A DNA stretch of 20,820 nucleotides. Origin: a virus. The notes beneath the pieces are model-generated. The model saw nothing but the letters and a program-made list of their open reading frames with translations, had not been told where the DNA came from and made no database searches. How positions within the stretch are numbered: position 1 is the first letter of the stretch; each line of letters begins with the position of its first letter. Below are positions 1 to 18,800 of this stretch, one piece after another. The stretch lies in the IMG/VR virus record IMGVR_UViG_3300037011_000103, positions 1 to 20,820 of that record. The stretch is one strand, 5' to 3'. The translations under genes were made by a program, and so were the position numbers.

Positions 1-3000
1 ATCCCCCCGACCCGGGAGAGGCAGTCATCCCTGCCTGCTGAGTAGCGGATCCCCGGATCGCCATCTGCTGGTCATAGAGAGGCGTGCCAGGGAGCTGGGG
101 ATAGTCGGAGATGCGGCTGGGCGGGGGGATCATCATCGACGGCGAGCCCGGAGCCCCGATGGTCGGCCCGGTGTATGCCCGACCAGCAGGAGCGGCGGGC
201 GGGGCTACCGGCTCTCCCCACGCCTGGCTCCCTGCCATCTGGGGTGGAAGGTTCTGCCTGAGATTTGCTCGTTGCTCCTCCAGCCCCGCAGCCGCCATTT
301 TCGTGAGCTCGGCCTGGCCTGCCCTTGCATCGCGCAGGAAGCCCTCTGCGACCTTGGCCGCACCAGGGCTCATGCCAGCCGCTACTCCACTGGGTCTACC
401 CCCTGCCGCACCCGGGAATGCCGCCAGACCTGGCGCAATCAGGGGCTCCTGAAGCAACTGGAGCGTGACAGCCCACTGGTTGGAAAGCTGCCTGGTTCGC
501 TGAGACTGGAGCTCAGACATCTGGATCTGAGCCTTGATCTGGCGCATGTTCTCATCAGCCCAGACTCCGGCTTCAACGAGGGTCTTGCCGGTAGCCGTCT
601 GCTGGATGGCCTGCTGGCGAAGAGCTTTCCCGGCTTCGGTAGAGGAGTCAACGATCTCGCCATTGACCTTCATGATGATGCCGGACTGCATTGCCAGAGA
701 GGCGCTGTACTGATCTCCTGCGTTAGTGGCGGCAACGACCGCCTTGTCGATCTCCTCGTAGGTCTTTGCAACTTCCCACGAGACCTTGACATGCTTGCCA
801 CCCGAACTCTCGAGGGCTTTGCCAGCTCGGTCGGCAGCCATGTTGAGATCGTTCAATCCTGCGGTTCGAGCAACGAGCTGACCAGGCTTCATGCCTTTGT
901 TTGGATCGAATGGAGTTTCCTTTGCTGAGTTGGGCATTCCTTGTGCCGCAGTTGCTCCTGCAACGGTGGCACCAGCAACCATTGCGCCCCCAGCCACCAA
1001 GCCCACAGGACCCCCGATAGCCGTAGCCGCCATTGCGGCAGGGAGAACGGAAAGAAGTCCGGTCAGAACTCCAACCTTAGCTTGGTCGCCTGGCTTTGCC
1101 ATTCCAAACTGGGCTGCCTTGTAATCAATGTATTCCTGCTCTTTCGGAGAAGTGATGTAATCGCCGGCAGTAACCAGGTTATCCGCCATGGAACCAAATG
1201 CCTGAAGCGAGTTACCGCCACCGGAAAGGCCCTTGAACGTCCCGGCGACGTTCTCCATGAAGCCCTTGCCGCCGCCCATCTGCTCACCGAACAGGGCAGT
1301 TCCGAAAAGGCCACCGTAGCCACCGTACAGCCCCTCAGGGGCGCTTCCCTGAGCGTATGCAGCGGACCTGGTGAGGTCCATCGTCTCGCCCTGAGCGATG
1401 GCTGCTGCCTTCGCGGAGGCAGACGCGGACAAGGCGGAACTGACGAACTGGTACATGGACTTCGACAGGCCGGCAGTAGCGGCCGATTGAGCCATGGTCG
1501 CCTGCACGTTGCCATGCGACTCGGCCACTGCTTTCCCAAGCGCAGTAGTAGTCGCGGAATATGTTGAACGGAAACCAGCGAGCTGATCCAGATACTTACC
1601 GGCGGCTGGAAGAGCCGCCTCATTGATGACGGTCGAAGCGAGCTGCATCGCCATGCCGTAGGCCGTAGTGGCGCCGAGGATCACACCAAGGTTTCGGATA
1701 ATGCCCGGAGTGGTGGGCATTGCCTTCTTGGTTGCCTGCTCGAGGTTCTCGAACCGCTCCTTTTCAATGACCTTCTGTTCGCGAACGGCCCCGAGAAGTT
1801 TCTTGTTGTTGGCGTGATAGTCAGCAGTAGCCTGCTTGTACTCGTCAGTGCTCTTGTATGCAGCAGAGGCAGCCTTGTACTCGGCAGTTCCCTTCTTGAG
1901 TCCCCTTACAGCGTCAGAGTGTCCCGCTGTTTCCTTCTTGAATGCTTCGTAGTAGACATCATGCTCGGCAGCCGTTTTGGAAACGAGAATGCCGCCAGCT
2001 TTGAGCGACTTGTTGTAGGCCGATTGGGACTCGATCCGAACTCGCTCGGCTTGCGTGATTTGCTGAACTCCGCCGAGGAAGAACGAACCGACAGAAGCGA
2101 TGGCTCCCTGGATGGTACGGGATGGCATTGCCTTGCCAGCCCCAGCCCGCATTACCGAGAGTTCCTCACTTCGGTTTATGCGTTCGACAGGAAACGCTGT
2201 CCGCGCTCCCCGACGAGCCTTATCTGCTTCCTTTGCGACAGCCTCTCTCCACTCTGCCCTCAGAATGGCATTTATTGAGGGCTCGGCATCACCGAAACTG
2301 GGACGCGCTCTGGTTGTTTCCCTCGTTGGACGTGTCGGCCCATAGGCAAGATCCCCAGCGACCGCTCCCGACCACGGATCCTCAGCTCGCTTGAACGCAG
2401 CATTGGCATCGTAACGACCTTCGCGAGCATGTGGGATCTGGTCGATCAGGCGGTTCGGGATGATGATCCCGTCCTCGGGCGGAGCGAAGAGCTCGTTCCG
2501 TTTGCGGCCGATCTCGACGATGCCGCCATTCGCGGCACGCGGGATCTGGTCCATGACCTTCTTCGGGATGCGGCCAGCTAGACGATTGGGGACGAAGAGC
2601 TCGGGGCCGATCTCACCAACGATGTAGAGGCCCTCGCCAGCCTTGCCACCGGACGCCATCTTCCCCTTGATGTCCTTCGGAAATGGAGTCAAGGCCATGT
2701 TCGATGGGAGGTTCCGGGGGTGCATCCATGCTGTTGCATTCAGATCCCCGGCGGGATCAGCACGCAACTTCGACATCATGATGCGCCAGATATTGGTAGC
2801 GTCCTCGGGAGACTTCTTCAGCAGATGGAGAAGACCTTCATCGAGAGCCTCCGGGCCCATCGGAGCGCCAACGAAGTCTCGATTGAGGCGATACTGCGGC
2901 TTGGCAAGCGGGCTGTCATACATCCGACCGCCAACATAGAACCCACCAACCCCGAAATCGGTCAGCGGGCCCATGTAGCCAGCCCTGGTGATACCCCAGT

Positions 3001-6000
3001 CTCCGCGCCCCACTCCGCCACCGCCAGCGCGACCGGAGAGCTTGCTGAAGATCTCTGCGGCCCGCATCCGCTCTGGCTCGACCTTCTCGAGCGAGCGGTT
3101 GGCCGAGGCAATGCGGGTCAGGCCGGGGCTCTCAATCAATCCCCCGATGCCGCGCACGGCGTTCAGGGCGTCCTTGCCGGACGCCTCGATCATGATCTGG
3201 TGGCCCTGGCGAGCGCCCAGGCTCAACCAGTGCCACATGAGCTTCGCGTTAGCCACTTCACCAGGAGCTGATGGCCGTCCAGCCCGGGTCAGGTTCTGGA
3301 TCCGGGTCATGTTCTGGATGTGGATGACGGCGTCGTAGTCGGCCGCCATCCTTGCGAGGTGGGCGGACGGACGCATGTGGAGACCGAGCTCGTCGGCCAC
3401 CGTGAACAGCTTGCGAACAGGACCGCCAGCCATGCGCTTCTGGGCCTGCTGCATGGACTGGTAGGACATGATCGCCATGAAGGGATCGTTGGCCCAATCA
3501 GCAGCCGTCTGGAAGATCTGGCTGATCATCCCCCCGCCGGGATGGACCAGACCGTGGGGCTGGCCTGCGACGGCAGCGCCGCCAGAGGCGCGGCGGTGCA
3601 TCGGGCTGAACATGTTCTCGAGCTGGCCGAGACTCTGGGGCTTGACCTTCCTGCCGGGAAGCGGGTTGGCCTCCCTCTCGTAGAGCCATGAAGCAGCCTG
3701 GAGCTCCACCGGGTGCAAGCCGAGCTCGGCTGCTACCTGGCGGTAGGCGGCATCAACGTCGTTCCGAAGAGGACCCTCTCCATACGCGGAGAGATGGCCG
3801 CGAGTGGCAGTCCTGAAGGCCCAGCGGTCGAGAGTGAGGGCATCAAGATCGCCACCGAGGTTCCGATAGAACGGCCCGACCTTTGGGGTATGGCCGAGGA
3901 TCCTCTCTGGGTCCGCTCCCTCGAGGATGGCCCTGGCCTTCCCGTGGGCATCGAGCCTCATGTTGTAGGGGAACGACTCACCGAACAGGCCCATTCTGTG
4001 CGTCTGGAGGACCCTGTGAGCCTTGGTCTTGTTGGCTTGCCACGACGTGCCGGCCGAGAGGGCGGCAGTCACACCGCGAACAGTGGTCGGGTCGATCCCG
4101 TAGCGAACAGACTGCTCGTTGATCCATTTCTGGGCATCGGCATACCAGACCTTGCCGAACTTCATCTGGTCTGGTGAGATCCTCGCCGCTGCTGCTCGCA
4201 AGTTGCCGGCGAAGTCCAGCTCCTCCTGGGTCATCCGTCCGACGACAGCACCCTTCTTGGCGTGAACCGGGCCACCAGCCATTTCCCCGAACAGCTTGGT
4301 TGTTTCGCCGGTCAGGGGAACGAGAGGTTCAGCGGCGAGGGGGAAGGTTTCCCATGCGCTCGAAGCGAACCCGGGGATGCGACGCTTGGCACTAGCCTCG
4401 TAGGCCGCCCGGCGAGCATCCTCGATCTCGCGGCGCTCCTGATCGCGCCACTGAGCGTTTTCCCAGCCCTTGATGTTTCCGTAGGAACGCGTCATGCCGT
4501 AGGCGCGGGTGCGGCGGGCAGCATTGACGGGCCCACCAGCCATCATGCCGAAGGTGAGCTGGCCGGAAGACGGGCGCGGGACTCGACTGGGGCGCGGGGC
4601 CGGCTCGGTCTTCGTGTACGGACCAGGGGGGTGCTTCCACAGCTCCCAGTCGAACCCGTATTCCCCGCCGACACGGTCGAGCATCCGACGCTGGAGGTCG
4701 AAGCTCTGAAGGACCTCTTTCGACGAAAATGCCTTGATGAAGGCAGGAGTGAAGTAATCCGCTCCACTCGCCCCATATCCTCGCGGGATGTGGGTGCCCT
4801 TGATGAACTCCTCTTCACGGACACCCATGGCCTGGGCCAGCTCTTCGGCCATGCTCCGGGCAAGCCGGATCTGGCCCGGATCACTGTGAATGGAATGTCC
4901 TCTCGGACGCATGATCTGTGTGGAGTGCGGGGTCACGACCCACGACTCGCGCTCCTCCCCCGAGAACATCGTGCGAATATCAGGAAGCGAGGGACGCCAG
5001 ATGTCGGTCGAGCCCTTGTAGAGAGGATGGTTGTGGATACCAACCAGACCCGAGGTGTCATTCAGCCTCGAGCGCCCATATCCAAAGTTTCGCCAGCGAA
5101 GCTGACTCTCGGCAGGAAGCCCGGGACGCATCTTGGTTTTGCCCGGGGAAACGGATCCCGTGTCTCCGATGGCCTGACCGATGACGAAGGGACGACCCTC
5201 TACAAGTTCATCAATGCCGAGCCAATGCTCCCGGGTCATGCCCCGGATGCGGTCGATGTCATGCGACACTCCGGGACCGGGCTCGAATGGCCCGAGCCCC
5301 TGAGATCCCAATCCGAGACCGAAGCGGTGCATCAGCTCAGATGGTTTGCCCGACGAGCGGAAGGCGGAGGCTGGCCCGCCCTCCTGGCGCTTCCGGCCGG
5401 ACATGATGAGCTGGTTGATCCGCTCGGCCGTGGCCCGCAGCTTGTGGGTGCTGGTGGGGATCTCGTCGAAACGCTTCAGGTCGAAGAAGGCGAGCTGGGA
5501 CTTGGCCCGAGCCACGAGATCAGCTTCGCGGCGACGCCCGAGGACAGCAGCCGGGTCGATGTGGATCTGGCCCTCGTGGAGCCAGGTCCCGACGAAGGGC
5601 GGGAAGTCGCCAGCCGCCATCTGGGCCTTGCGCTGGGCGTTGTACTTTCGGAAGAAGTCACGGGGATCGTTCGGGTCAGCGAGCTGGCTGGTTCCGGTCT
5701 CGATGCCCACGGCGTAGCCCTTCGGGGGCTGGGGTCCGCCGTAGAGCGGGAAGGTGCCACCCTCGTTCGCCAGGGTCGCCCGGAGAGCGATGGCCCCAGC
5801 GCCGGCATGACGGATCCCACGCCAGGCATGCGATGCCGCCCAGTTCTCGCTCCAACGCCTCTTCAGGCGCCGCCTGGCAAGCCCGGTGAGCTTCGGGGAG
5901 CCACCGAGTCGGGCGAGCTGGTGAAGGGCCAGCTCAGATCCCTCGTTGCCGATCATCTGGATCTCGTCGCCCGGGATAGCCATGAGCTGGGCCCAGCCCA

Positions 6001-6964
6001 TCATGCTCCGGGGTGACAGGTTGGGAGATGCACCGTTTGTCAGGTTGCGGATCTGGATCGCGGCATCGGGATAGTGCTGGGCCACCTGGGCCAGGACGCC
6101 CGACGGACGCATGTGGAGACCCATGGGGTCTGCAACGGTAAAGGTCCGCACCGGCCCGCCGGCCATGCGGAAAACCTTGGGCGGAAGGCGCTGCTCGCGG
6201 GCGCGGCGCATCCATTCCGGCTCGAAGATCGGCTGGGGCTGCTCGACAGGAGGAGGCGGGGAAGGCCGGTACGGACCTTCGCGGAGACGACGGGCCAGAG
6301 GGCCTTCGACGGGGCCTCCGGCGAAGCGTCCCATCTCGCGCTCGTGGCGACGCTGCTGGGTGTACTCGAGAGCAGCGAGCTCTGCCTCGCGGCGGCGGAA
6401 GCGTTCCTGCTCACGGTAGAACCGCGTGGCGTCCGGCTCGATGTGGCCGTGGCTGCGGGGGATGAAGACCTCGGGTCGATGCTCTCCCACGATGACCGCA
6501 CGCCCGGCCTGGACGGGCCCGCCGTGGGCCTTCTGGGGAAGGTTCTGGCGGACGGCAGACTCCACCACGCGGGCGGCCCCGCTCCGGGTCCCGATGGCCG
6601 GCGTGCTGACAGCCGCGACGACCGACTGGGCCTCTGCCCTGGCCGCCTTGGCGCCCTGGGTCGTGACGGTGATGGGGATGTTCTGGAGGGCGCCCTGGAC
6701 TTGCTTGCGAAGACCAGCGAGCTGCTGGTCGGAAAGGACCAGGGAGACATTGATGCCCGTCAGGCTCTGGGCAGACGAAGGCCCGGAGGCGGTTTGCTTG
6801 CCGCCCCCGGCCTTGAGCTGGCCTGCCCCGGACCCGGCCTTGGCAGCCTGCTGCTGGAACGTATTGAGGGAACCCTGGGCGGCCTTCATGCCACCCATGA
6901 ACTCCCCGGCATCGAGGGTCAGCTTTACGCCGATGCTACTGACTTCGCCCGTCTCACCTGGCAT
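1..6964 (-). CDS. Giant tail tape measure protein with embedded HPr-like and JAMM-like modules (3' partial)
   Basis: The ATG at 6964 follows GGGAGAG, 18 bases after the T extension stop. I translated the frame to the left edge and met no stop: 2321 residues with the C-terminus outside the window. Residues 1-125 are a typical tape measure start (VKLTLDAGEFMGGMKAAQGSL). A GG..V..G...VGE..PE.F.P motif occurs at 147-169, again at 1436-1459 and in a weaker form at 1479-1504. Residues 213-1280 hold the modules listed separately. From about 1520 on comes the ordinary ruler: charged helices, then hydrophobic segments at 1620-1633, 1754-1780 and 1964-2008, then Ala/Gln-rich helices and a Pro/Gly-rich end. 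The protein sets tail length, occupies the tube lumen and may be released into the host at DNA ejection. The last 2.2 kb appears lower in GC than the module region. Confidence 0.9.
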   Translation of the reverse strand, partial: MPGETGEVSSIGVKLTLDAGEFMGGMKAAQGSLNTFQQQAAKAGSGAGQLKAGGGKQTASGPSSAQSLTGINVSLVLSDQQLAGLRKQVQGALQNIPITVTTQGAKAARAEAQSVVAAVSTPAIGTRSGAARVVESAVRQNLPQKAHGGPVQAGRAVIVGEHRPEVFIPRSHGHIEPDATRFYREQERFRRREAELAALEYTQQRRHEREMGRFAGGPVEGPLARRLREGPYRPSPPPPVEQPQPIFEPEWMRRAREQRLPPKVFRMAGGPVRTFTVADPMGLHMRPSGVLAQVAQHYPDAAIQIRNLTNGASPNLSPRSMMGWAQLMAIPGDEIQMIGNEGSELALHQLARLGGSPKLTGLARRRLKRRWSENWAASHAWRGIRHAGAGAIALRATLANEGGTFPLYGGPQPPKGYAVGIETGTSQLADPNDPRDFFRKYNAQRKAQMAAGDFPPFVGTWLHEGQIHIDPAAVLGRRREADLVARAKSQLAFFDLKRFDEIPTSTHKLRATAERINQLIMSGRKRQEGGPASAFRSSGKPSELMHRFGLGLGSQGLGPFEPGPGVSHDIDRIRGMTREHWLGIDELVEGRPFVIGQAIGDTGSVSPGKTKMRPGLPAESQLRWRNFGYGRSRLNDTSGLVGIHNHPLYKGSTDIWRPSLPDIRTMFSGEERESWVVTPHSTQIMRPRGHSIHSDPGQIRLARSMAEELAQAMGVREEEFIKGTHIPRGYGASGADYFTPAFIKAFSSKEVLQSFDLQRRMLDRVGGEYGFDWELWKHPPGPYTKTEPAPRPSRVPRPSSGQLTFGMMAGGPVNAARRTRAYGMTRSYGNIKGWENAQWRDQERREIEDARRAAYEASAKRRIPGFASSAWETFPLAAEPLVPLTGETTKLFGEMAGGPVHAKKGAVVGRMTQEELDFAGNLRAAAARISPDQMKFGKVWYADAQKWINEQSVRYGIDPTTVRGVTAALSAGTSWQANKTKAHRVLQTHRMGLFGESFPYNMRLDAHGKARAILEGADPERILGHTPKVGPFYRNLGGDLDALTLDRWAFRTATRGHLSAYGEGPLRNDVDAAYRQVAAELGLHPVELQAASWLYEREANPLPGRKVKPQSLGQLENMFSPMHRRASGGAAVAGQPHGLVHPGGGMISQIFQTAADWANDPFMAIMSYQSMQQAQKRMAGGPVRKLFTVADELGLHMRPSAHLARMAADYDAVIHIQNMTRIQNLTRAGRPSAPGEVANAKLMWHWLSLGARQGHQIMIEASGKDALNAVRGIGGLIESPGLTRIASANRSLEKVEPERMRAAEIFSKLSGRAGGGGVGRGDWGITRAGYMGPLTDFGVGGFYVGGRMYDSPLAKPQYRLNRDFVGAPMGPEALDEGLLHLLKKSPEDATNIWRIMMSKLRADPAGDLNATAWMHPRNLPSNMALTPFPKDIKGKMASGGKAGEGLYIVGEIGPELFVPNRLAGRIPKKVMDQIPRAANGGIVEIGRKRNELFAPPEDGIIIPNRLIDQIPHAREGRYDANAAFKRAEDPWSGAVAGDLAYGPTRPTRETTRARPSFGDAEPSINAILRAEWREAVAKEADKARRGARTAFPVERINRSEELSVMRAGAGKAMPSRTIQGAIASVGSFFLGGVQQITQAERVRIESQSAYNKSLKAGGILVSKTAAEHDVYYEAFKKETAGHSDAVRGLKKGTAEYKAASAAYKSTDEYKQATADYHANNKKLLGAVREQKVIEKERFENLEQATKKAMPTTPGIIRNLGVILGATTAYGMAMQLASTVINEAALPAAGKYLDQLAGFRSTYSATTTALGKAVAESHGNVQATMAQSAATAGLSKSMYQFVSSALSASASAKAAAIAQGETMDLTRSAAYAQGSAPEGLYGGYGGLFGTALFGEQMGGGKGFMENVAGTFKGLSGGGNSLQAFGSMADNLVTAGDYITSPKEQEYIDYKAAQFGMAKPGDQAKVGVLTGLLSVLPAAMAATAIGGPVGLVAGGAMVAGATVAGATAAQGMPNSAKETPFDPNKGMKPGQLVARTAGLNDLNMAADRAGKALESSGGKHVKVSWEVAKTYEEIDKAVVAATNAGDQYSASLAMQSGIIMKVNGEIVDSSTEAGKALRQQAIQQTATGKTLVEAGVWADENMRQIKAQIQMSELQSQRTRQLSNQWAVTLQLLQEPLIAPGLAAFPGAAGGRPSGVAAGMSPGAAKVAEGFLRDARAGQAELTKMAAAGLEEQRANLRQNLPPQMAGSQAWGEPVAPPAAPAGRAYTGPTIGAPGSPSMMIPPPSRISDYPQLPGTPLYDQQMAIRGSATQQAGMTASPGSGG
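3128..3415 (-). other. HPr-like domain 2 within the tape measure protein
   Basis: Residues about 1184-1279, directly after RMAGGPV. LFTVADELGLHMRPSAHLARMAADYDAVIHIQN is followed by an insertion of about 15 residues, then ANAKLMWHWLSLGARQGHQIMIEASGKDALNAV. His1196 and Arg1198 match HPr His15 and Arg17. LSLGARQG matches the HPr MSLGIAKG segment closely. The position of regulatory Ser46 is Leu1242. This is the clearer of the two HPr matches. Confidence 0.85.
3416..3436 (-). repeat. RMAGGPV module-boundary peptide (before HPr-like 2)
   Basis: Residues 1177-1183, identical to the copy at 6149-6169 and followed in both cases at once by an HPr-like strand (VR.FTVAD or VRKLFTVAD). Confidence 0.8.
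3668..4234 (-). other. Helical module resembling a phage/plasmid family of unknown function
   Basis: Residues about 911-1099, starting just after EMAGGPVHAKKGAVVG. Key segments are YADAQKWINEQSVRYGIDPTT, then GVTAALSAGTSW..N, then KARAILEGADPERILGHTPKVGPFYRNL, then DALTLDRWAFR, then AYRQVAAELGLHPVELQAASW. I know this pattern from phage and actinobacterial proteins of unknown function, possibly of the HhH DNA-glycosylase-like type (DUF7178-like). Family name from memory. Confidence 0.55.
4895..5221 (-). other. JAMM/JAB-like metal-binding module in the tape measure protein
   Basis: Residues about 582-690. HNHP at 644-647 is followed by P658-S659-L-P-D662-I, giving H-x-H...P-S-x-x-D-I as in JAMM metalloproteases and RadC-type proteins. 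The spacer between the second His and Ser is 12 residues instead of about 7. Glu586 or Glu589 could be the upstream acid. A WVVTPHSTQIMRP strand follows. Tail proteins such as lambda K also carry JAB domains. Activity is inferred only. Confidence 0.6.
5456..5761 (-). other. Unnamed GY...W...FDL phage domain in the tape measure protein
   Basis: Residues about 402-503: GGTF.LYGG, then GYAVGI, then FVGTWLHEGQIHIDP, then an A..LVARAKSQLAFFDL end. I know a similar pattern (GY.V..., W.D.G..Y.D, A..LA...NQ.AI.DL) from many phage and plasmid proteins of unknown function. No catalytic residues are evident. The family match is from memory. Confidence 0.5.
5900..6148 (-). other. HPr-like domain 1 within the tape measure protein
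   Basis: Residues about 273-355. The order is FTVADPMGLHMRPSGVLAQVA, then a beta segment AAIQIRN, then NLSPRSMMGW, then GDEIQMIGNEGSELALHQLARL. This follows bacterial HPr: GLHxRP with His284 and Arg286 matching the phosphorylated His15 and Arg17, and S-M-M-G (Ser320) matching the regulatory Ser46 region S-I-M-G. A loop about 5 residues longer lies before the serine. Preceded immediately by RMAGGPV. Confidence 0.82.
6149..6169 (-). repeat. RMAGGPV module-boundary peptide (before HPr-like 1)
   Basis: Residues 266-272. The same heptapeptide recurs before HPr-like domain 2 at 3416-3436. Variants occur at 6311-6328 (FAGGPV), 4526-4546 (MMAGGPV) and 4265-4285 (EMAGGPV). It is related to the GGPV start of the general tape measure motif. 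Confidence 0.8.
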
Positions 6965-6982: not shown

Positions 6983-7192
6983 CTACACCGACTCTCCAGT
7001 GAAAGCCTCAGCGTTGTACTCGACGACGTCTTCGACGCTTGCGAGCTTGTCGCCTTCTGTGGCGACCGTATTTCGGCCGATCCAGTCCTCGCGCAAGGCG
7101 AGGTAGAGATGAAAAGGGAGTGCCGCTACCTCGTGAGGCCACTTCCCGTATCGGGCCGCGATACGGAAGATGAGGTCACGAGTGGTCAGGCG
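6983..7192 (-). CDS. T extension of the chaperone, made by -1 frameshift (G-T)
   Basis: After the slippery site the -1 frame stays open for 69 codons, to a TAG at 6985-6983. It encodes LTTRDLIFRIAARYGKWPHE, then a helical PFHLYLALREDW segment and an acidic end (GESV). The fusion with G would be about 192 residues. There is no good start codon of its own, and the frame begins exactly at the slip point. The content (helical with Trp-rich segments) and the position just before the tape measure gene match known G-T products. Confidence 0.88.
   Translation of the reverse strand, partial: RLTTRDLIFRIAARYGKWPHEVAALPFHLYLALREDWIGRNTVATEGDKLASVEDVVEYNAEAFTGESV
7142..7169 (-). promoter_or_regulatory. 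Possible frameshift-stimulating stem-loop
   Basis: 7159-7165 pairs with 7147-7153 (7 bp), and 7166-7169 with 7142-7145 (4 bp) past one bulged base, around a 5-base loop. It starts 22 bases after the slippery site. That spacing is longer than the usual 5-9 bases, so a role in frameshifting is uncertain. Confidence 0.45.
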
Positions 7193-7560
7193 TTTCCCTT
7201 GGGGGTCTCCTCGGCCGCGTCGTCGGCGGGCTCCGCCTTCTTCTCCGGCTCGTCGCCGTAGTGCATCCGGTTCACGGTCTGGTTCAGCTTCAACACCACC
7301 CGCATCGGGAGGTTGGCGAGCGTCTCGGGGGTGAGCTTCGGCTCGACCGAGCAGCGCAGGACCATGAACTTCAGGAGGAGGGAGTTGTCGATGGTCTCGT
7401 CCTCCTGGCCGGTGAGGGGGTTGGCAACCTTCGTGGTCGCCTTCTTCACGAGCTCGTCGTAGTCACCAATGGAGAGCTCGCGGAGGCGATAGGGAATGCC
7501 CCGGATGTTGATCTCTTCCTCGAGGAAGTCGGGAGTCAGGCTAGCGGCGCGAGGTGTCAT
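7186..7560 (-). CDS. Tail assembly chaperone, gpG-like
   Basis: 124 residues; ATG at 7560 with GAAGGGA about 10 bases upstream. It contains FLEEEINIRGIPYRLRELSIGDYDELVKKA, a start typical of siphophage tail assembly chaperones (tube-like beta strands then helices). It ends in an acidic Ala/Glu/Lys tail (EPEKKAEPADDAAEE). A -1 slippery heptamer sits four codons from its stop. In lambda, G and G-T bind the tape measure protein and recruit tube subunits; the tape measure gene follows here too. Confidence 0.88.
   Translation of the reverse strand: MTPRAASLTPDFLEEEINIRGIPYRLRELSIGDYDELVKKATTKVANPLTGQEDETIDNSLLLKFMVLRCSVEPKLTPETLANLPMRVVLKLNQTVNRMHYGDEPEKKAEPADDAAEETPKGNA
7192..7198 (-). promoter_or_regulatory. 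-1 programmed frameshift slippery heptamer GGGAAAC
   Basis: On the minus strand the zero frame reads AAG GGA AAC GCC TGA, so G GGA AAC is an ideal X XXY YYZ heptamer (lambda uses GGGAAAG). The zero-frame stop follows one codon later, while the -1 frame opens into the T extension. Confidence 0.9.
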
Positions 7561-7959: not shown

Positions 7960-8403
7960 TTAGGTGAGGGTCCCGTCCGAGAAGACGGTCCACGCCGCCG
8001 AGGCGCGGAAGTTGCCGGTCGTCTTGATCGCGTCCGAGATGCTCGCCGTGATCGAGGCGTCCATGAGCCCCGGGCCCTTCGCCACGAGGATCTCGCTGGA
8101 GACGCGGTCGTCCGCGTAGAGGTAGATGTAGATCGCGTCCGAGGACGCGGCGTTCACCTGGTAGTCCCCGGAGACGTCCAGGAGGCCCGCGAAGGTGCCC
8201 TGGATGTCCTTGAGGCCGACGAGGTAGGTCTTGTTGGTGGCCCCGAATGAGGTGCTGTCAACGTAGTCACGAGACAGGTTCAGGGTCCACTCGGTCTTGG
8301 CCGTGAGCTTGACCTTGGCGCCGTAGGTGTCGGCCCCCGTCGCGAATGCGACGTAGATCGCCCCATTTTTGCCGTGCAGCTTGGTGCCGGCTCCTGTTGC
8401 CAT
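7960..8403 (-). CDS. Tail tube-like protein, paralogue 2 (probable major tail protein)
   Basis: 147 residues; ATG at 8403 with GAAGGAG upstream, the strongest ribosome binding site of this cluster. It is related to the preceding gene across its full length but has a longer N-terminus, an extra loop (VAFATGADTYG) and a longer C-terminus (TVFSDGTLT). The strong site and the hairpin after its stop suggest high expression, so this copy is the better candidate for the main tube subunit. Functional assignment comes from order and pattern. Confidence 0.8.
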   Translation of the reverse strand: MATGAGTKLHGKNGAIYVAFATGADTYGAKVKLTAKTEWTLNLSRDYVDSTSFGATNKTYLVGLKDIQGTFAGLLDVSGDYQVNAASSDAIYIYLYADDRVSSEILVAKGPGLMDASITASISDAIKTTGNFRASAAWTVFSDGTLT

Positions 8404-8415
8404 TGTTCAACTCCT

Positions 8416-8787
8416 TCAGGGAATGTCCCATGCCCCGGCAGACTTGAAGTTGCCGGAGATGCGGACCGCATCAGAAATGCTGACCGTCACGGAGCAATCC
8501 ACAAAAGCGGGTCCAGAGGCGATCGGGGAGGCACCATCCTCGGCATAGACGGCCACCGTGTAGGCGACTCCGTCGTTGCTCTGGAGGGCAAGATCCCCGT
8601 CGATGTCCAGCAATCCCGCGAAGGTCCCCGAGATGTCCATGAGACCAGCCGCGTACACCTTGTTCCTGTCACGGAACGTGGAGACGTCGGCGTAGTCCCG
8701 GTTCATGTTCAGGGCCCACTCGGTCTTGGCGGTGACCTTGGATCCGTTGATGTAGATGGCGCCGTTCTTGCCGTGGAGCTTTCTCAT
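8416..8787 (-). CDS. Tail tube-like protein, paralogue 1
   Basis: 123 residues; ATG at 8787 overlaps the terminator stop, with no strong ribosome binding site. It starts MRKLHGKNGAIYINGSKV and shares KLHGKNGAIY, a TAKTEW.LN..RDY core, DI.GTFAGLLD..GD and SISDA....GNF with the next gene. The beta-rich pattern and position match a phage tail tube (major tail) protein. Two such genes in a row mean either a heteromeric tube or that one copy has another role, such as a decoration or baseplate tube protein. Confidence 0.78.
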   Translation of the reverse strand: MRKLHGKNGAIYINGSKVTAKTEWALNMNRDYADVSTFRDRNKVYAAGLMDISGTFAGLLDIDGDLALQSNDGVAYTVAVYAEDGASPIASGPAFVDCSVTVSISDAVRISGNFKSAGAWDIP

Positions 8788-9200
8788 AGGGACTGGTCGG
8801 TCCAGACCGAATACGAGCCGCCCACCTGGTAGATGCGCTTTCCCTCGGAGTCGATGTCTGGCCCCGTTGGCAGATCCGCGACCCGGCGGCAAAGCAGGCT
8901 GGTCTGCCCATCGACATTGAGCCCAGCCTCGTTGAGGGCCCCGGCGACGAGCGCGTCGATGTTGTTGGCATCGACGGGGTTCTCCGCATAGACCGAAACG
9001 TCGATCAACGCCTGGATCATCATGCCGGTCCAGTCATACGCATACGGGGCCGCCACGAGCTGATAGGTGATGAACGGGTAACGGACCTTGCGGGGAGCGA
9101 TCCCCTCGTGGATCCCGCCTCTTATGGCGGACACGAGAGAGGGTGAGGCGCGGAGCGCCTGCACGACCGCTCGCTTGACCGGGGCGACGGATGTCGTCAT
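8784..9200 (-). CDS. Tail terminator / tail completion protein (DUF3168-like)
   Basis: 138 residues from the ATG at 9200, preceded by GGGGAAGGACAG. The open frame extends further upstream within the gp10-like gene but only as an Arg/Pro/Ser-rich shadow. The N-terminal helix (VKRAVVQALRASPSLVSAIRGG), then YPFITYQLV and a strand with LIDVSVYAENPVDANNIDALV, fit the tail terminator family that caps the tail tube during assembly. The position between the gp10-like gene and the tail tube genes agrees. Its stop overlaps the next start as ATGA. Confidence 0.8.
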   Translation of the reverse strand: MTTSVAPVKRAVVQALRASPSLVSAIRGGIHEGIAPRKVRYPFITYQLVAAPYAYDWTGMMIQALIDVSVYAENPVDANNIDALVAGALNEAGLNVDGQTSLLCRRVADLPTGPDIDSEGKRIYQVGGSYSVWTDQSL

Positions 9201-11277: not shown

Positions 11278-12618
11278 CTAGACCTGGACGCGGATCTTGT
11301 TGCTCCACGGCAGGACCTTCACCGCGAGCCCGTTCATCATGAAGACGATGTACAGGTGGGTGAGCTGGCCGCTGATGCCGATGGGGATCTCGAGGACCGT
11401 GGGGCCTGGGCTCCCGAGGTAGGGAAGCGTGATGCTCCCCTCGTCGAGGAGGTACAGGTCGCGGTACGCGGTCGGACCGATGTGGTACGAGGCGATGGAG
11501 TCGCCCGGCACCGTCGCGAACGGGATCTGGCCGGCATAGGTGTTGACCGTCTGGGCCGTGACACCGACGCCGATGTTGACGTAGTTCGGGCCGACCAGCC
11601 GAACGTTGGTGTCCTGCTGCTCGTCGAAGGTGATCTTCTCCTGCGGATGGCCCCAGATGATGTTGGCGTTGCCGCCAGCCTGGGTGATGAACAGGAGCGC
11701 CTTGTCCACCTGGTTGCGGAACGCGTGGTCCCCGTAGGTGGTGGCGTCGGTGTTACTGAAGCCCACGGGGTTGAAGCTGTGGGCGTTCGTGGTCAGGATC
11801 TGCCGCAGCCCGGTGAAGGCGTTGGCGTCGTACAAGCCGAACTCGTCGTCCGCCGTGCCGGAAGCGACCGCAGCGTTGCCGCCGAAGATCTGCTTCTGCA
11901 TCTTGTGGGACATGGCACGAAGGCCACCCTGAAGCTCGATGGCTTCGGGGTTGTAGTTCATGCCGCCAGCCATGACCGCGAACTGCGACTTCAGGCTGAT
12001 GCCCCGGCGGGTGGCGAGGATGCCGACGTTCGTGGTCTTCCGCTCGTAGGTGCTCGTGTCGTCGGACACGGTGCCGAGCTCGGCCATGAACTTGGCGTCG
12101 CCGTACGCCGTGATCTGGTTCCAGGCGTGGACCAGGCCGTTGGCCGGCTCCTTGGGGAAGCGGTCATAAGCCGGGAACTGCCGGATGAAGACCTCGTAGA
12201 GCATCGGCTCGAGGTCCTGGCGGATCAGGGCAGCAGCCCCACCCGTGTCCAGGGCCTTGGCGATGTCCGGCGCGAGCTGACCACTGATGTTGTTGAACGC
12301 GTTCTGGGCCGCGAAGCCCGCCGTGTTCAGCCAGAGATCGAGCGGAATGCCCGTGTCCTTCGCAGCAGCCTGGCGAGTGACGAGCTCGAGGATGTTGTTG
12401 GTGGACTTGGTGCGAAGGGTCTCGGAGAGCTCCATGCGCTCGTCCGGGGTGATGTAGCGGCGGGTGGCGGAAGCGGGAGTGCCCTGGTCCTCGACGCCCT
12501 TGACTTCAGGCGTCGCGACATTGGGGGCCTCGTTCATCTTCAGGAGCGTCTTACCGATCTGCTCCTGAGTCTCGAGGACACCCTTCAGGAGGGCCTCCAG
12601 CTCTGGCGACATTGCCAT
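11278..12618 (-). CDS. Major capsid protein (HK97 fold)
   Basis: 446 residues from the ATG at 12618. An AAGAAAGG ribosome binding site lies 9 bases upstream. A TTG at 12627 overlaps the protease stop but has no spacing from that site, so I prefer the ATG; an ATG at 12612 is also possible. The first 100 or so residues are helical and charged, as in an N-terminal arm or delta-type segment that may be removed by the protease. The rest has features of HK97-like capsid proteins: a long alpha/beta body, TAYGDAKFMAELGTVSDD, an AGGMNYNPEAIELQGG segment and a C-terminal strand region. Position directly after the protease and before head-tail connectors supports the call. A strong hairpin follows the stop, as expected for a highly expressed gene. 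Confidence 0.88.
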   Translation of the reverse strand: MAMSPELEALLKGVLETQEQIGKTLLKMNEAPNVATPEVKGVEDQGTPASATRRYITPDERMELSETLRTKSTNNILELVTRQAAAKDTGIPLDLWLNTAGFAAQNAFNNISGQLAPDIAKALDTGGAAALIRQDLEPMLYEVFIRQFPAYDRFPKEPANGLVHAWNQITAYGDAKFMAELGTVSDDTSTYERKTTNVGILATRRGISLKSQFAVMAGGMNYNPEAIELQGGLRAMSHKMQKQIFGGNAAVASGTADDEFGLYDANAFTGLRQILTTNAHSFNPVGFSNTDATTYGDHAFRNQVDKALLFITQAGGNANIIWGHPQEKITFDEQQDTNVRLVGPNYVNIGVGVTAQTVNTYAGQIPFATVPGDSIASYHIGPTAYRDLYLLDEGSITLPYLGSPGPTVLEIPIGISGQLTHLYIVFMMNGLAVKVLPWSNKIRVQV

Positions 12619-12623
12619 GCTGG

Positions 12624-13940
12624 TCAACCTTTCTTGAGGAGGGTCAGGAAGTCATCGCCGTAGACCGACTTCAGGCTCGCGAACTGCTCGGTGGCCTGGC
12701 GGACCGTGGCGCGACGACCTACGGGGGTTGCGGACAGGCGGGCCAGGATCTCGGCCGTGTTCGCGAGAACCTTCTCGGTCGCCGCGATGGCTGCGTCCCG
12801 CTCGAGAGTCGCTTCGTCCAGGGCCGCCTTTGTCTCGATCAGCTCGCGGGTGATCGCCTTCAGGAGGTCACTGGAGTTCCGCAGGGATGCGACGACGGTG
12901 GGGCTCAACATGAAGAGCGCCGGGTCGATCCCTTCCATCTCGGGCTCGCCAGAAAGGCCGATGGCCGCCCATGGGTTCAGGGGCAGGCTCTCGTCCTCGT
13001 CCGTTTCCTCGTTCTCAGGGGCGCTCAGGAGAGCTTCCTGCGAGGTGTCACCAGCGGGGGTCTTGGGAGTCCCCCGGTTTCCGGTGTCGATGTGGACCTT
13101 GCCGCCGCCCGGCATCTCGATGTGGACGGTGGCGTCGGAAATGTCGGGCCAGGGGGCCTCGGCGTGATCTCGGGCGATGTCGAGCAGCCGGTCGAATGTC
13201 TCGCCTGCCACGACTACTGTTCCGTCTTCCTGCTCGCGGTGACGGTGGAGAACCGTGCCGTTCTCCGTCTCCTCGATCAGGGGCTCGCCCTCGGCCTCCT
13301 CAAGCGGGTCGTCATGGTGATCCATCTCGTCGGAGGTCAGCTCCGCGACGATCTCAGGAGCCTGGAGCGGGCCGTCACCGACGATGGTGACTTCCTCGCC
13401 CAGCTCCGCCTCGATGAGGCTCACGCCGCCGTTGAGCGACTTCACGGCGTACTCGACCCAGGACCTGGGGTTCGCCGGCACGCCGACCAGGGAGGTCTCG
13501 AGGAGATCGACATGGTTGATCTCGTACGAGCCTGTTTTCCGGTCGCGGACGGCACCGTTCTCGGGGATCATCGCGCCGATGGAGAGGCCGAGCTGGGTGC
13601 CACCATTGATGGCCTCCCATGCTTTCACGGCCCGCTCGTTGCTCTGGTTCACGATGATGTCGAGGGCCAGGTCGTGGATGCTGGAGTCCTGCGGATGGGA
13701 GCGGATGATGGCCCGCTCGACCGATCCCGCGACATCCTCGGGCACCCGGTACTCGTGATTGAGGAAGATCGTCATGTTGTTGTTGGCGCTGTTCTCCATG
13801 TCGGAGAGCGCCGACGGGTTCATCGTGTCGCCGTGACGGTCTTTGACCGTCGAGCTGGCGATGCCGTGAAGCCTCATCTTGCCGTCTGGTCCCATGCTTG
13901 CCTTGAGCATGGGCGCGAAGATCTTGAACATCGGGTTCAT
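12624..13940 (-). CDS. HK97-type prohead protease with long C-terminal extension
   Basis: 438 residues; ATG at 13940 in an ATGA overlap with the glycosyltransferase, with GGAGG 7 bases upstream. Residues 1-170 show the prohead protease fold: LHGIASSTVKDRHGDTM, FLNHEY with the likely catalytic His62, GLSIGAM with the likely nucleophile Ser120, and ETSLVGVPANPRSW. The enzyme matures the capsid by cleaving scaffold or the capsid N-terminus. Residues about 175-330 are acidic and low in complexity. Residues about 335-420 are predicted helical and rich in Ala, Glu and Leu, resembling a scaffold segment. Usual proteases of this family are about 200 residues, so the extra 260 may be a fused scaffolding domain. 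The major capsid gene follows immediately. Protease call strong; scaffold fusion inferred. Confidence 0.9.
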   Translation of the reverse strand: MNPMFKIFAPMLKASMGPDGKMRLHGIASSTVKDRHGDTMNPSALSDMENSANNNMTIFLNHEYRVPEDVAGSVERAIIRSHPQDSSIHDLALDIIVNQSNERAVKAWEAINGGTQLGLSIGAMIPENGAVRDRKTGSYEINHVDLLETSLVGVPANPRSWVEYAVKSLNGGVSLIEAELGEEVTIVGDGPLQAPEIVAELTSDEMDHHDDPLEEAEGEPLIEETENGTVLHRHREQEDGTVVVAGETFDRLLDIARDHAEAPWPDISDATVHIEMPGGGKVHIDTGNRGTPKTPAGDTSQEALLSAPENEETDEDESLPLNPWAAIGLSGEPEMEGIDPALFMLSPTVVASLRNSSDLLKAITRELIETKAALDEATLERDAAIAATEKVLANTAEILARLSATPVGRRATVRQATEQFASLKSVYGDDFLTLLKKG

Positions 13941-15199
13941 GCGGACGCCTCCGGCGCTTCAGTAGTGGCGGGGGGCTGGGCATTCGCCAGCGCCGTCACG
14001 TACTCGTCGAACTTCTGGGCCGCGAAGTCCCAACTGAATGTCTTCGCGTGGGCGGCACCGGCCTCACCGAGGTCTCGCCGCAGCCCCTTGGAGTGATACA
14101 GGCGCTCGACTGCCGCCGTGAAGGCGTCGATGTCGGGCAGCCAGTTGTCCTCGCCTGCGGGAGTCGTCAATAGACCCCGAGGCTCAAGGAGGATCCCTCC
14201 GGGCCCGACCACTTCCGGGATGGCGGACACGTTCTGGGCAACGATGGGGATGCCGCACGAAGCGGCCTCGAGGAGGGTCAGGCCGAAGCCCTCTCCCCGC
14301 GAGGTGGAGACGAAGCAATCGAAGGCCGAGTACAGAACATTGAGGTCCTGGAGAGCCCAGCCCTCGAAGCTGGAGTGCAGGCCGGGGAAGTGGAACCGCG
14401 TCGGGTCCACTGTATCGGCCTCCCGGGAGAGCAAAGCCTGGAAGCGGATCCCCGCCGTGGGACCCTCGTCCTGGCAGTGGAAGTGGACGTCGATGTCCTT
14501 GAACTTTTTCATCAGCGGCCAGAGGGCCTTGACCAGTGCCGAGTAGTCCTTCCGTCCGCTGTTCGAGTCCACCCTTCCGATCAGGAAGTTCTGGGGATCG
14601 AAGTTGAATGCCCGTTTGCATTCCGCCTTCGTCTTGCAGACGATCCCGGTGCTGGTGACCTTGGGCTTCTCCCAGATCGGCCAGAAGACCTCCGGGTCGG
14701 CACCGTGGTAGACCATCTCGCTCGGCTGGTAGTGCTGTTGTCCCCACTTGCTCATGGCGACGACATTGGTGACCTTCGGGAGGAGCGTCATCCATCGAGG
14801 AGGTAGGTTCGTGCCGTCGTCCGGCGTGTACGCGATCAGGGGCCGGTACTGGAGAAGGATCCGTTCCGGGTCGTACTTGTTGTCGAACAGGAACTGGAGA
14901 ACGACCTGGGGATCCGCCAGGGTGACCACGACATCCGGCTCGATCTTGGCGAGCATCTCGATGATCCTGGACAGCCCGTAGATGTCCGACGTGGAAAGGA
15001 GGTCTGGGCGGTAGAGGCGCATTGGCGTCGTGTGGTCATGGCCTGGTCGTTCACAGGGCCACGAGTCGCCCCTGTAGTTGACGGCGAGGACTGAGACCTC
15101 GTGGCCGTAGTCCTCGACCAGCCGCTCACCGATGGCATGCGTCACGCGGGCAAAGCCCGTGGTGCAGCCCGCATCGGAAAGCCACAAAACCTTCGACAT
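13937..15199 (-). CDS. Glycosyltransferase family 4 (GT-B fold)
   Basis: 420 residues. The start at 15199 (MSKVLWLSDAG) is chosen because GGAGG lies 6 bases upstream of that ATG; an upstream in-frame Met at 15226 has no comparable site. The N-terminal half has the acceptor-domain pattern with a Gly-rich first loop (DAGCTTGFARV). The C-terminal half carries the nucleotide-sugar domain with IGRVDSNSGRKD, then the E-x7-E motif E303-GFGLTLL-E311 followed by AASCGIPIV, the hallmark of GT4 retaining enzymes. The length is normal for the family. The gene sits among virion genes, after the Ser/Thr-rich repeat fibre and before the capsid genes, and overlaps the protease start by ATGA. Possible roles are glycosylation of the repeat protein, of the capsid, or of a host surface component. 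The donor sugar cannot be read from sequence. Confidence 0.92.
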   Translation of the reverse strand: MSKVLWLSDAGCTTGFARVTHAIGERLVEDYGHEVSVLAVNYRGDSWPCERPGHDHTTPMRLYRPDLLSTSDIYGLSRIIEMLAKIEPDVVVTLADPQVVLQFLFDNKYDPERILLQYRPLIAYTPDDGTNLPPRWMTLLPKVTNVVAMSKWGQQHYQPSEMVYHGADPEVFWPIWEKPKVTSTGIVCKTKAECKRAFNFDPQNFLIGRVDSNSGRKDYSALVKALWPLMKKFKDIDVHFHCQDEGPTAGIRFQALLSREADTVDPTRFHFPGLHSSFEGWALQDLNVLYSAFDCFVSTSRGEGFGLTLLEAASCGIPIVAQNVSAIPEVVGPGGILLEPRGLLTTPAGEDNWLPDIDAFTAAVERLYHSKGLRRDLGEAGAAHAKTFSWDFAAQKFDEYVTALANAQPPATTEAPEASA

Positions 15200-15205
15200 T
15201 CCATT

Positions 15206-15242
15206 CCTCCGGGCATGCCGAAACACCGGGTTCGACCGGCAT
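15206..15242 (-). promoter_or_regulatory. Small hairpin and ribosome binding site before the glycosyltransferase
   Basis: The gap 15200-15255 has arms 15215-15220 and 15237-15242 (6 bp, 16-base loop), followed 4 bases later by GGAGG at 15210-15206. The stem is weak compared with the two downstream hairpins, but the arrangement is the same. Confidence 0.4.
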
Positions 15243-15255
15243 CGGCTGCTAGCGG

Positions 15256-15579
15256 TTACTCCTTTGGGGGAGCCTTGGTGAACGGCCTGAAGCCGCCGTG
15301 CTGTCCCTTGTGATCCTCTGGCCTACCGCAGTAGGCGAGCCATCCGCAGGGTGCCGCTCCGGTCTGGGCAGGAGTCCTGACCCAACCCATGGCCGACAGG
15401 GCCTCCATCGCGCCACCGACCCCGAGCCTGATATACAGGCCCTGCATGTGGTTCTTCACGGTCTGAAGCGAGATGTTCAGTTCGTGGGCCACTTGTTTCT
15501 GGGATCCGAGGCGTGCGTATGCCTCGAGTACCTTCAACTGGGTGATGGTCGGACTCGGGCCTTCGAGCAACCGGCGCAT
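15256..15579 (-). CDS. LuxR-type helix-turn-helix protein with C-terminal Cys/His motif
   Basis: 107 residues. Residues 10-66 are a compact LuxR/GerE-type DNA-binding domain: a TITQLKVLEAYARLG helix, then QKQVAHELNIS, then the recognition helix SLQTVKNHMQGLYIRLGV. There is no receiver or autoinducer-binding domain. The C-terminal 40 residues contain C78, C84, H90 and H94 (CX5CX5HX3H), which could bind a metal. The start lies one base from the preceding stop and lacks a strong ribosome binding site, so translation is probably coupled. A transcription regulator within a virion structural cluster is unusual; it may control the late operon or a host promoter. The HTH call is firm; the target and the metal site are inference. 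Confidence 0.85.
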   Translation of the reverse strand: MRRLLEGPSPTITQLKVLEAYARLGSQKQVAHELNISLQTVKNHMQGLYIRLGVGGAMEALSAMGWVRTPAQTGAAPCGWLAYCGRPEDHKGQHGGFRPFTKAPPKE

Positions 15580-15580
15580 A

Positions 15581-15898
15581 TCACTGACGACGGACGGTAA
15601 TGGTTACCTCCGGGCTGGTCGTCTGAACGCGACCGCCTAGATAAGTGACTTCCCACTGGACTACGTACGTACCCGGAACGGAGAGGTCGTTCGCCGCCCA
15701 CGAGTAGCTCACCCGTCCGTTGACAGCATCGAGGATGTCGGCCCCCGAGTTGACCTGGTAGCGACGGTCGTCAGAGCGCCTCATCTGGAAGCGCACCGAG
15801 GCGTTGGTCAGGTCAACAACCTGGGTCGGGTCGTCTTCCTCGTGGATGATGGCTGTGATGTCCGGGGCTGTATCGCCCTGGACGAAGGTGAGACTCAT
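15581..15898 (-). CDS. BppU-like N-terminal domain protein (small Ig-like phage structural protein)
   Basis: 105 residues starting MSLTFVQGDTAPDI. The start ATG at 15898 overlaps the stop of the repeat-protein gene (ATGA) and is preceded by GGAGG with about 4 bases of spacing. A much longer open frame continues upstream in the same phase but lies inside the repeat gene and is not credible. The sequence has the pattern of the phage baseplate upper protein N-terminal domain: an F.QGDTAP.I start, then DLTNASVRFQMR, then an SYSWAANDLSVPGTY segment and a final TSPEVTITV strand. In known phages this domain anchors a receptor-binding protein or fibre to the virion. Here it stands alone directly after the giant repeat protein, so it may be its adaptor or a small decoration protein. 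Family call from pattern recognition. Confidence 0.75.
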   Translation of the reverse strand: MSLTFVQGDTAPDITAIIHEEDDPTQVVDLTNASVRFQMRRSDDRRYQVNSGADILDAVNGRVSYSWAANDLSVPGTYVVQWEVTYLGGRVQTTSPEVTITVRRQ

Positions 15899-18800
15899 GC
15901 GACCTCCGCATCGAGGAGGAAGGTCCGTCGCCTCGTGTGCGACCACGAGGTGCTGACCGTGGCGGCGATGGTTCGGGCCGATGTCGTGGCCTCGATGGTC
16001 CGGGCCGAGAGCGTCCCCGCGATGGTCGCGGCCGAGAAGGTGGCCTCGATCTCCGCGACGATCCTCTCGCTGATCGAGGCATCGACCGGGAAGTTCCCGT
16101 AGCCGGGCCCGGAGATCGAGGCATCGACGATGAAGTGCTGGACGCCCGCGCCGCTGATCGAGGACTCGACCGCGAAGGACCCGGCCATCCGGGCCTTGAT
16201 CGCGGCGTTGGCCGTCAAGGTCCCGGTCTCGATGATGGAGACGGCCGCTGCGGCGGTGTATGAGCCGGACGCGACCTTCAAGAGGATCGCATCTGCGGCG
16301 AAGGATCCACCAGCCGCAGCAAGGACGATCAGGGCATCGGCCGTGATCGCGGCGGTTCGGGGGGACAGAAGAACAGCGTCGGTGGCAAACCCGACCATTC
16401 GGGTGGCCCCGATGACCGCCTGGGCCTCGAAGCTCGCCTGGAAGACCGTCTTCAGCAGCGCGTCGGCGGTAGCCGAGCCACTGCTCGTCCGGCGCACGAC
16501 CGCGCTTGCCGTGATGGTAGCAGACGCCGTGCGCGTTACAACGGCATCCGCAGAGAAAGCCCCAACCCCGGATCCGGCGATCCACGCCTCGGCAGTCAAG
16601 GCCCGCGTGTATGACGCGAATATGACGGCGTCGGCGCTCGTCTCCCCCACGGATTGCCCACGGATGACGGCATCGGCCGCGAACGAACCGGCTCCAGCGG
16701 TGGGACTCAGGATGTAGGCGTCGGCAGTCAGCGATCCCGTTGACGGCCGGGTGATGATGGCGTTGGCCGTCAGGGTGTTGGTGACGCCGCGGAGGATGAC
16801 CGCATCGGCTTCCACGGTGGCCGACGTCGAGCCCCTGACGACCGCATTCGCCGCGAACGACACGCTCGCCGTTGTTGCGATAATGGCGTCGGTCGTCAGG
16901 GTGGCGTTGCGGGTCTGGATGATCGCCGCATCAATCGTCCAGCTACCGGATGCGGTGACCCTGACGACCGCATCCCCGAGCATGGACCCCGTCCGGGTTG
17001 CGAGGATCGTCGCGTCGAGGGTAGCGGACGCGATCGTCTGGCTCCCAACGACCGCGTCCGCCGGGAGGCTACCGGAACGCGGGCGGGAGATTATGGCGTT
17101 GGCAGGGAAGTTGAAGTAGTACGGGCCCGCGATCCAAGCGTCGATGTTGAAGAAGCCCGACTTGCCAGCCCGAAGGAAGGCATCGACCAGCAGCCGGCCT
17201 GCGAGGAATGCTCCGACCGTGAAGGTAGCGGACTTCCATGCGGCGGCCGTGAACGACCCCGTCTGGCTCCCGAAGACCACCGCGTCCACCGAGGCAGAGG
17301 CGCCAGGATGCCCCAGGAGGACCGCAGACAGGCTGAAGGCCGTACCACTCTGCTGCCGGGCAACGACGGCGTCAGCGGTGCTCGAGGAGGCCCTGGCGAC
17401 GCGTAGAATGGCGTCGGTCGTCAGGCTAGCCAGTGCCGTCTGGCGAATGACAGCGTCGGCTTTGGCCTCCTTTACCGCCGTCCGCCTGACGACCGCATTC
17501 CCGCTGAACGAACCGGTCTTCGACGCGAGTACGATGGCGTTGGTCGTCAGGCTGGCCGCGAAGACCCGTCGAATGACGGCGTCGGCTTTCGGTTCTCCTC
17601 CGGCAGTCCGCCTGACGACCGCATTCGCAGAGAAGGAGGTCACCGTGGGCTTGAGGACGATGCTGTCCGAGCTGAATGACGAGCTGACAGAGGCCAGGAT
17701 CAGCGCATCGGCAAAGGAGATCCGGGAGACCGTCGCAAGGCTGACAGAGTCCAACCGGAAGTTGACGATGGCGCTCTTGGCGGTGATGGAAGAAGCCTGG
17801 AAGGACCCGGACTGCGGAGCCAGGATCGTGGAGGTCGTAGCGAATGTGCTAGAGCTCGACGAGAGCAGCACCGCCGCGACGGGGAACGTGCCCGACTGAG
17901 GACCCTTGATGACCGCGTTGGCGGCGAAGGATCCCGGAACCGCACCGTAGATGACGGCGTTGAGGGTGGTGCTTCCCGTCACCGTCCTCCGCAGGACGGC
18001 ATTCAGGGTCGCCGCAGACGTTGACGATTTCTTGACGATTGCCGAGACCGTGATCGAGAAACCGACCGTTGCCTTGATCGTCGCGGCGGTCGTGAACGAG
18101 CCCGTCGCGGTCTTCTTGATGACCGAGTTGGCCGTGAAGGTCTCCGTCCTGGTGGCCTTCAGGACCGCGTCCGCCGTCTTCGACCCGCTCAGGGTCGCCT
18201 TCAGCGTCGCGGCAGCGGTGAAGGTCCCGGTCGCGGTCCGCAGCTTGACCGCGTTGACGGTCGTCGAGCCCAGGAGATCGGGCTTCCTGACGACAGCATT
18301 GGCCGGGAAGTCGAAGAAGTACGGACCGGCGATCCACGCCTCGGCGTTGAAGAAGCCTGTGCCGCTGGAGACGATGAAGGCATCGACGTAGATCGCTCCC
18401 GCGATCCACGCCCCCACCGGGAAGATGCCGGCCTTGACCGCCTGGATGGTGAAGGTCGAGGTGGTGGACTTCCACAGCACCGCGTCCGAGGTCAGGGACC
18501 CGGTCTGGGTGCGGCGAATGATCGCCGCGAGCGTGAAGCTGCCGGATGCTGACTTCGCGAGGACAGCGTTGACCGTGGTCGAACCCGCCTGGGTCCGCTT
18601 GATAACGGCGTCCAGCAGGGTGTCGTCGTTGGTAATGATCGCCTTCAGAACGGCGTTGACGGTCGTCGTCCCCGTCTGCGTCCTCTTGATCGTCGCGGCG
18701 ACCGTGGTGGAGCTCGCCAGCCCTGTCTTGAGGATGACGGCATTGACCGTGGACGAGCCCGCCTGGCCCTTCAGGAGAACCGCATTGGCGGTCATGGATC

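Follow-up and report, generated by a model that had tools for sequence, protein, structure and literature searches.

HPr phosphocarrier domains in an exchangeable cassette array of a probable phage tape measure protein

Introduction

HPr (the ptsH product, PF00381) normally exists as a free protein of 85–90 residues, so two copies of it embedded in a virion-type protein longer than 2300 residues raise the question of what a phosphocarrier of the sugar phosphotransferase system (PTS) would do in a phage tail. The window analysed here is a stretch of 20,820 nucleotides of a viral record (IMGVR_UViG_3300037011_000103), and an earlier note, made from its letters, had placed two HPr-like segments inside a tape measure protein (TMP). 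Three points need to be settled: whether the domains are genuine, whether their carrier is a TMP, and what the domains could do once a virion meets its host. Profile, structural and comparative analyses indicate that both HPr domains are genuine on their profile scores and that they lie inside what is, by synteny, probably the TMP. They belong to an array of exchangeable domains that may be directed at the host cell.

Two HPr domains with intact active sites

Residues 273–355 and 1184–1279, the two segments proposed earlier, correspond exactly to the interval 6148..3128 of a minus-strand frame that runs from 6964 to 2 (Table 1); the earlier note gave no strand. This frame is open throughout and has no stops in either segment, which rules out a wrong frame or strand. 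The curated cut-off of the Pfam PTS-HPr family (PF00381) is 23 bits, and it is exceeded twice, by HPr1 with 42.4 bits (E 1.2e-12) and by HPr2 with 57.7 bits (E 1.7e-17), as the earlier note led one to expect. A chance match is also ruled out: the two domains together score 88.5 bits (E 3e-25), and matches in the PDB are confined to the HPr family. A profile of the phage copies retrieves only HPr, Crh and NPr chains at E <= 1e-3, with the best value (1.2e-12) for a B. subtilis-type HPr. No HPr family from PHROGs matches the window protein at E <= 0.1.

The phospho-acceptor histidine and its arginine, read by eye in the note, are present in both copies as H284/R286/P287 in HPr1 and H1196/R1198/P1199 in HPr2, each within a GLH-x-RP motif equivalent to the His15-x-Arg17-Pro18 triplet of HPr. 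The Gram-positive-type regulatory site at Ser46, which is not required of every HPr protein, is occupied by S320 (in 'RSMMG') in HPr1 and by serine in its relatives, by leucine in HPr2, and by tyrosine in the HPr of relative L017. HPr1 resembles Gram-positive HPr at this position. HPr2 carries an insert of about 15 residues before strand 3 compared with solved HPr structures.

Structure prediction bears out the proposed fold with confidence for HPr2, which is modelled as an open-faced beta-sandwich of HPr type. The AlphaFold model has a mean pLDDT of 83.7, with 91–96 over most of the core. HPr, Crh and NPr account for every one of its 37 best PDB matches, and superposition on the HPr structure 3ihs gives a VIA Z of 14.5, an rmsd of 1.5 over 84 residues and a TMt of 0.90. 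Structure alignments put its identity to cellular HPr at about 18–34%. The model of HPr1, built together with the next cassette, did not reach such confidence (pLDDT 57); HPr1 probably has the HPr fold as well, judging from its profile score and its 46–48% identity to HPr2.

Table 1. Features of the probable tape measure protein and of neighbouring structural genes in the window (residues are those of the TMP)
Feature	Position	Strand	Support
Probable TMP, 2321 aa, cut by contig end	2..6964	-	Open frame; adjoins tail assembly chaperone; same place in relatives
Conserved TMP N-terminal part, residues 1-215, motif GGPV..VGEHRPEVF	6320..6964	-	phrog_30701 E 2e-8
Pro-rich spacer, residues 216-268, MAGGPV at end	6161..6319	-	Similar spacer before HPr of L017
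HPr1, residues 273-351; His284 codon 6113-6115, Arg286 codon 6107-6109, S320 codon 6005-6007	5912..6148	-	Pfam PTS-HPr 42.4 bits
Cassette, residues 373-528, also a stand-alone phage family	5381..5848	-	phrog_17808 (137-position model) E 1.3e-5; 72% identity in L017
JAB-like cassette, residues 529-808, HNHP at 644-647	4541..5380	-	Motif HNHP..S..D only; absent in L004
Cassette, residues 809-895, between two MAGGPV linkers	4280..4540	-	Homologues in L004, L013
DUF7178 cassette, residues 928-1096	3677..4183	-	Pfam PF23802 112.7 bits; phrog_3842
Conserved spacer 'QTAADWANDPFMAIM', residues 1128-1179, MAGGPV at end	3428..3583	-	Also in L012, L013, L015, L017
HPr2, residues 1184-1278; His1196 codon 3377-3379, Arg1198 codon 3371-3373	3131..3415	-	Pfam PTS-HPr 57.7 bits
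Conserved landmark GLYIVGEIGPELFVP..APPEDGIIIPNRL, residues 1443-1516, array's end	2417..2638	-	Alignment and viral scan
TMP C-terminal part, residues 1517-2321, runs off contig	2..2416	-	Homologous to longer TMP frame of L017
Probable tail assembly chaperone	7186..7560	-	phrog_389 XkdN-like E 0.0019, weak
Major tail protein	7960..8403	-	phrog_10528 E 5.9e-8
Major capsid protein	11278..12627	-	phrog_752 E 3.3e-14; 61-94% identity in full-length relatives

The carrier as a probable tape measure protein

The frame is probably a TMP, a name that rests on synteny because Pfam and PHROGs offer no TMP model that matches the window protein, nor one for the C-terminal parts of the relatives L013 and L040. 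Profile searches identify a probable tail assembly chaperone (a weak match), tail tube proteins, neck proteins and the capsid protein ahead of the gene, and this gene order is conserved in relatives. In the 77-kb contig of L017, the gene next after the TMP encodes a 530-residue YQBQ-like protein (E 0.005, below the cut-off), a 1407-residue repeat protein also lies downstream, and no other ruler candidate was seen. A distant relative by capsid (41% identity), the contig L053 from an Anaerolinea metagenome-assembled genome (MAG), carries a canonical TMP (TMP_3, 107.8 bits) downstream of the capsid gene. Both ends of the protein are conserved. Residues 1–215 are about 50–100% identical over most of their length in closer relatives and 40–46% identical in more distant ones, and a transmembrane scan finds a single hydrophobic stretch in the C-terminal part, at residues 1962–2007.

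Other genes and host clues

Several further features of the window, all on the minus strand, merit description. Two adjacent tail tube paralogues (7960–8403 and 8416–8892) are about half identical, and the pair recurs in relatives. A glycosyltransferase gene (13937–15226; Pfam 62.6 bits) lies in the head gene cluster beside the capsid protease and is kept at 71–99% identity in relatives. Among the structural genes, a small protein (15256–15579) has a LuxR-type (GerE) DNA-binding domain (E 1.7e-7) and a 45% identical homologue in L017. A segment with a BppU N-terminal (baseplate) domain (15581–15892, E 1.3e-7) lies directly downstream of a 1641-residue repeat protein (15895–20820) that is open at the contig end. 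This protein has a degenerate repeat of about 14 residues with a motif like TGSFTANAVLKRTQ, and the 14-residue spacing dominates; weakly similar long repeat proteins occur in L017 and L040–L042, and Pfam gives no match. Rfam has no match within the window.

Clues to the host are sparse. GenBank phages contain no match to the capsid protein, whose one match in cellular genomes, a distant one, is the Anaerolinea contig. No capsid relatives occur in 399 other Chloroflexota genomes. HPr was not found in the Anaerolinea MAG, and the TMP landmark was not found in cellular genomes.

A cassette array with exchangeable parts

The N-terminal 60% of the TMP is an array of exchangeable, mostly globular cassettes joined by MAGGPV-type linkers. 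GG-type linkers cut the protein between residues 1–215 and the landmark GLYIVGEIG (1445), with MAGGPV at 267, 808, 895 and 1178, and the intervals between linkers are families common to relatives in shuffled order. In the named phages inspected, DUF7178 is encoded by small genes of its own. Relatives carry a ParB-like cassette whose profile matches a solved ParB (E 2e-4) and a GNAT-like cassette below the cut-off (E 0.013), and the names of the JAB-like, YHGT-motif and HEFGH-motif cassettes come from motifs alone. The JAB-like cassette has no JAB profile match, and neither it nor the GNAT-like cassette has a trustworthy match among solved structures. A motif of zinc peptidases, HEFGHLLHH, occurs in a TMP cassette at L015:14228–14884, which has no Pfam match. 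A YHGT-like cassette, present twice in tandem at L024:4130–5047 and also in L015, L019, L022 and L035, is reminiscent of ADP-ribosyltransferases in its motif; two copies searched gave no profile match.

DNA comparisons of close relatives expose the boundaries of exchange. In L012 and L013, the DNA of codons 1–790 is 98.6% identical; the two then diverge completely into unrelated cassettes at a GG linker, and similarity returns with the next spacer. The JAB-like cassette of the window (residues 530–807) is missing from L004, where the flanking DNA is 91.5% and 87.7% identical. Both pairs look like recent cassette exchange. The GNAT-like cassettes of L011 and L013 are 92.5% identical in DNA and stand in different settings. 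HPr is only one among many such interchangeable units. This context, which the earlier note missed, speaks for a domain array directed at the host and against a dedicated sugar-PTS device.

HPr domains in related phages

The search for HPr in other TMPs, proposed in the earlier note, was productive. Scanning of viral contigs with the TMP ends and with HPr alignments yielded 29 related contigs, ten of which carry HPr above the Pfam cut-off. Three types can be distinguished: HPr1-like (L003, L004, L012, L013), HPr2-like (L016, L017) and a third type in L039–L042, whose copies are identical over the stretch compared. G-[LI]-H-x-R-P-S is invariant in the alignment across copies of all types, which are 37–48% identical between groups; HPr2 and the HPr of L017 are 71% identical. 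The dN/dS ratios are 0.06–0.24 for HPr1 pairs and 0.32 for HPr2. Purifying selection acts on the HPr domains with about the same strength as on neighbouring parts of the protein. Phage copies are somewhat closer to one another than to cellular HPr, which hints at a single acquisition followed by spread. HPr is optional, as the TMPs of L015, L020 and L035, which lack it, show.

The note knew of no HPr domain in a tail ruler, and our searches of GenBank phages, PHROGs and open literature turned up no TMP that carries HPr. Among the four best tblastn matches in named phages, three are stand-alone HPr frames of 89–106 codons in unannotated records (L067, L068, L070), and the HPr motif was not picked up in the fourth (L069). 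A search of 13 phage contigs, which may all be fragments, revealed neither an Enzyme I N-domain nor an HPr kinase.

Proposed mode of action and its rivals

We tentatively favour, with a probability of about 0.45, the reading that this protein is a tape-measure version of a 'polyvalent' protein, that is, a delivered, host-directed array in which the HPr cassettes engage the host PTS. The TMP would leave the tail at infection, its cassettes would reach the cell and each would act on its own host target. An HPr cassette could bind the usual PTS partners (Enzyme I, EIIA and HPr-reading regulators) through the conserved His15/Arg17/Pro18 face, and its histidine would probably accept phosphate. Four observations weigh against this reading: TMP profiles do not match the protein, HPr was not found in the Anaerolinea MAG, the 13 possibly fragmentary phage contigs gave no Enzyme I N-domain or HPr kinase, and several neighbouring cassettes owe their names to motifs only. 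We infer release of the TMP into the cytoplasm and engagement of the PTS, and entry together with the DNA is what the position of the protein in the virion suggests. A virion holds few TMP copies and a cell holds thousands of HPr molecules. Because so few copies arrive, docking or signalling close to the point of entry would fit better than bulk titration; of the roles put forward in the earlier note, titrating PTS partners is the least probable. One specific form of signalling appears unlikely: Enzyme I would phosphorylate HPr cassettes as they emerge, so that the virus reads PTS state or energy supply at entry, or anchors itself to PTS complexes while its DNA enters.

The cassettes might instead serve entry itself, without general signalling. 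They would attach, on the cytoplasmic side, to a PTS permease complex that acts as an inner-membrane port, and so hold the TMP or pull it through. EIIA and Enzyme I are natural binding partners of HPr, and the conserved active face suits docking. PTS permeases are known ports of this kind, ManYZ for lambda and phage 434 (PMC6832061) and PtsG for HK97 (PMC5099701). Such an anchor is nevertheless improbable here, given that cassettes are gained and lost among close relatives and that TMPs without HPr show it not to be essential for entry. Spacing is another conceivable role: tail length is set by TMP length (PMC5099701), and cassettes that vary in number and order could be interchangeable folded beads that lengthen the ruler without PTS activity. 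Spacers do not need a catalytic triplet, yet every HPr copy has one across divergent lineages, and several cassettes resemble enzymes. Conservation of the active-site triplet in otherwise diverging domains makes a role purely as spacers unlikely.

We also give little credence to action in the producing cell during assembly, or against competing phages, rather than at entry. TMPs are made late, in several copies per virion multiplied by the burst size, and effects on rival elements were also considered by the authors of the survey of polyvalent proteins (PMC5512222). The cassettes are nonetheless parts of a virion protein and not separate genes, which favours delivery. Least probable among these alternatives is that the gene encodes another large virion or injected protein at the TMP position, as the missing match to TMP models might suggest. 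Its place after the chaperone and before the distal tail genes argues against this, as do the lack of a second ruler in the 77-kb relative and the canonical TMP downstream of the capsid gene in the distant Anaerolinea relative.

Comparison with known systems

The embedded domains resemble HPr, Crh and NPr in profile score, in the fold of HPr2, in the active-site triplet and, for HPr1, in the Ser46 site; they differ in their setting within a giant protein and, for HPr2, in the insert before strand 3 and the leucine at position 46. In phages and conjugative elements, polyvalent proteins combine unrelated domains and have been proposed to enter the host with the DNA (Iyer et al. 2017, PMC5512222). 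Our array likewise joins disparate domains in one polypeptide, with HPr and DUF7178 over the cut-off and a ParB-like domain (E 2e-4) in relatives; ParB-like, GNAT-like and JAB-like classes are listed in that survey, and delivery with DNA is predicted in both cases. Here, in contrast, a probable tail ruler is the carrier, and one type of linker recurs between the cassettes. The main text of the survey mentions neither 'HPr' nor 'tape measure' (PMC5512222).

Ordinary TMPs of siphoviruses and myoviruses (TP901-1, XkdO-type) share the gene position after the chaperone, the great length and the conserved ends, but the middle of this protein consists mostly of globular cassettes and it matches no TMP profile. 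Polymorphic toxins swap domains beside conserved parts by recombination (PMC3482391). The cassettes described here are internal and exchanged between linkers, and no toxin/immunity pair was seen.

Implications

We found no earlier description of a PTS phosphocarrier in a virion protein. Genuine recent shuffling in TMPs could not be confirmed in a large survey of shuffling in phage proteins (PMC10684548), and the close pairs L012/L013 and window/L004 now supply apparent recent exchange of this kind. TMPs are usually seen as rulers and as conduits for DNA. If the frame described here is the ruler, this phage group uses its TMP to carry exchangeable host-directed domains.
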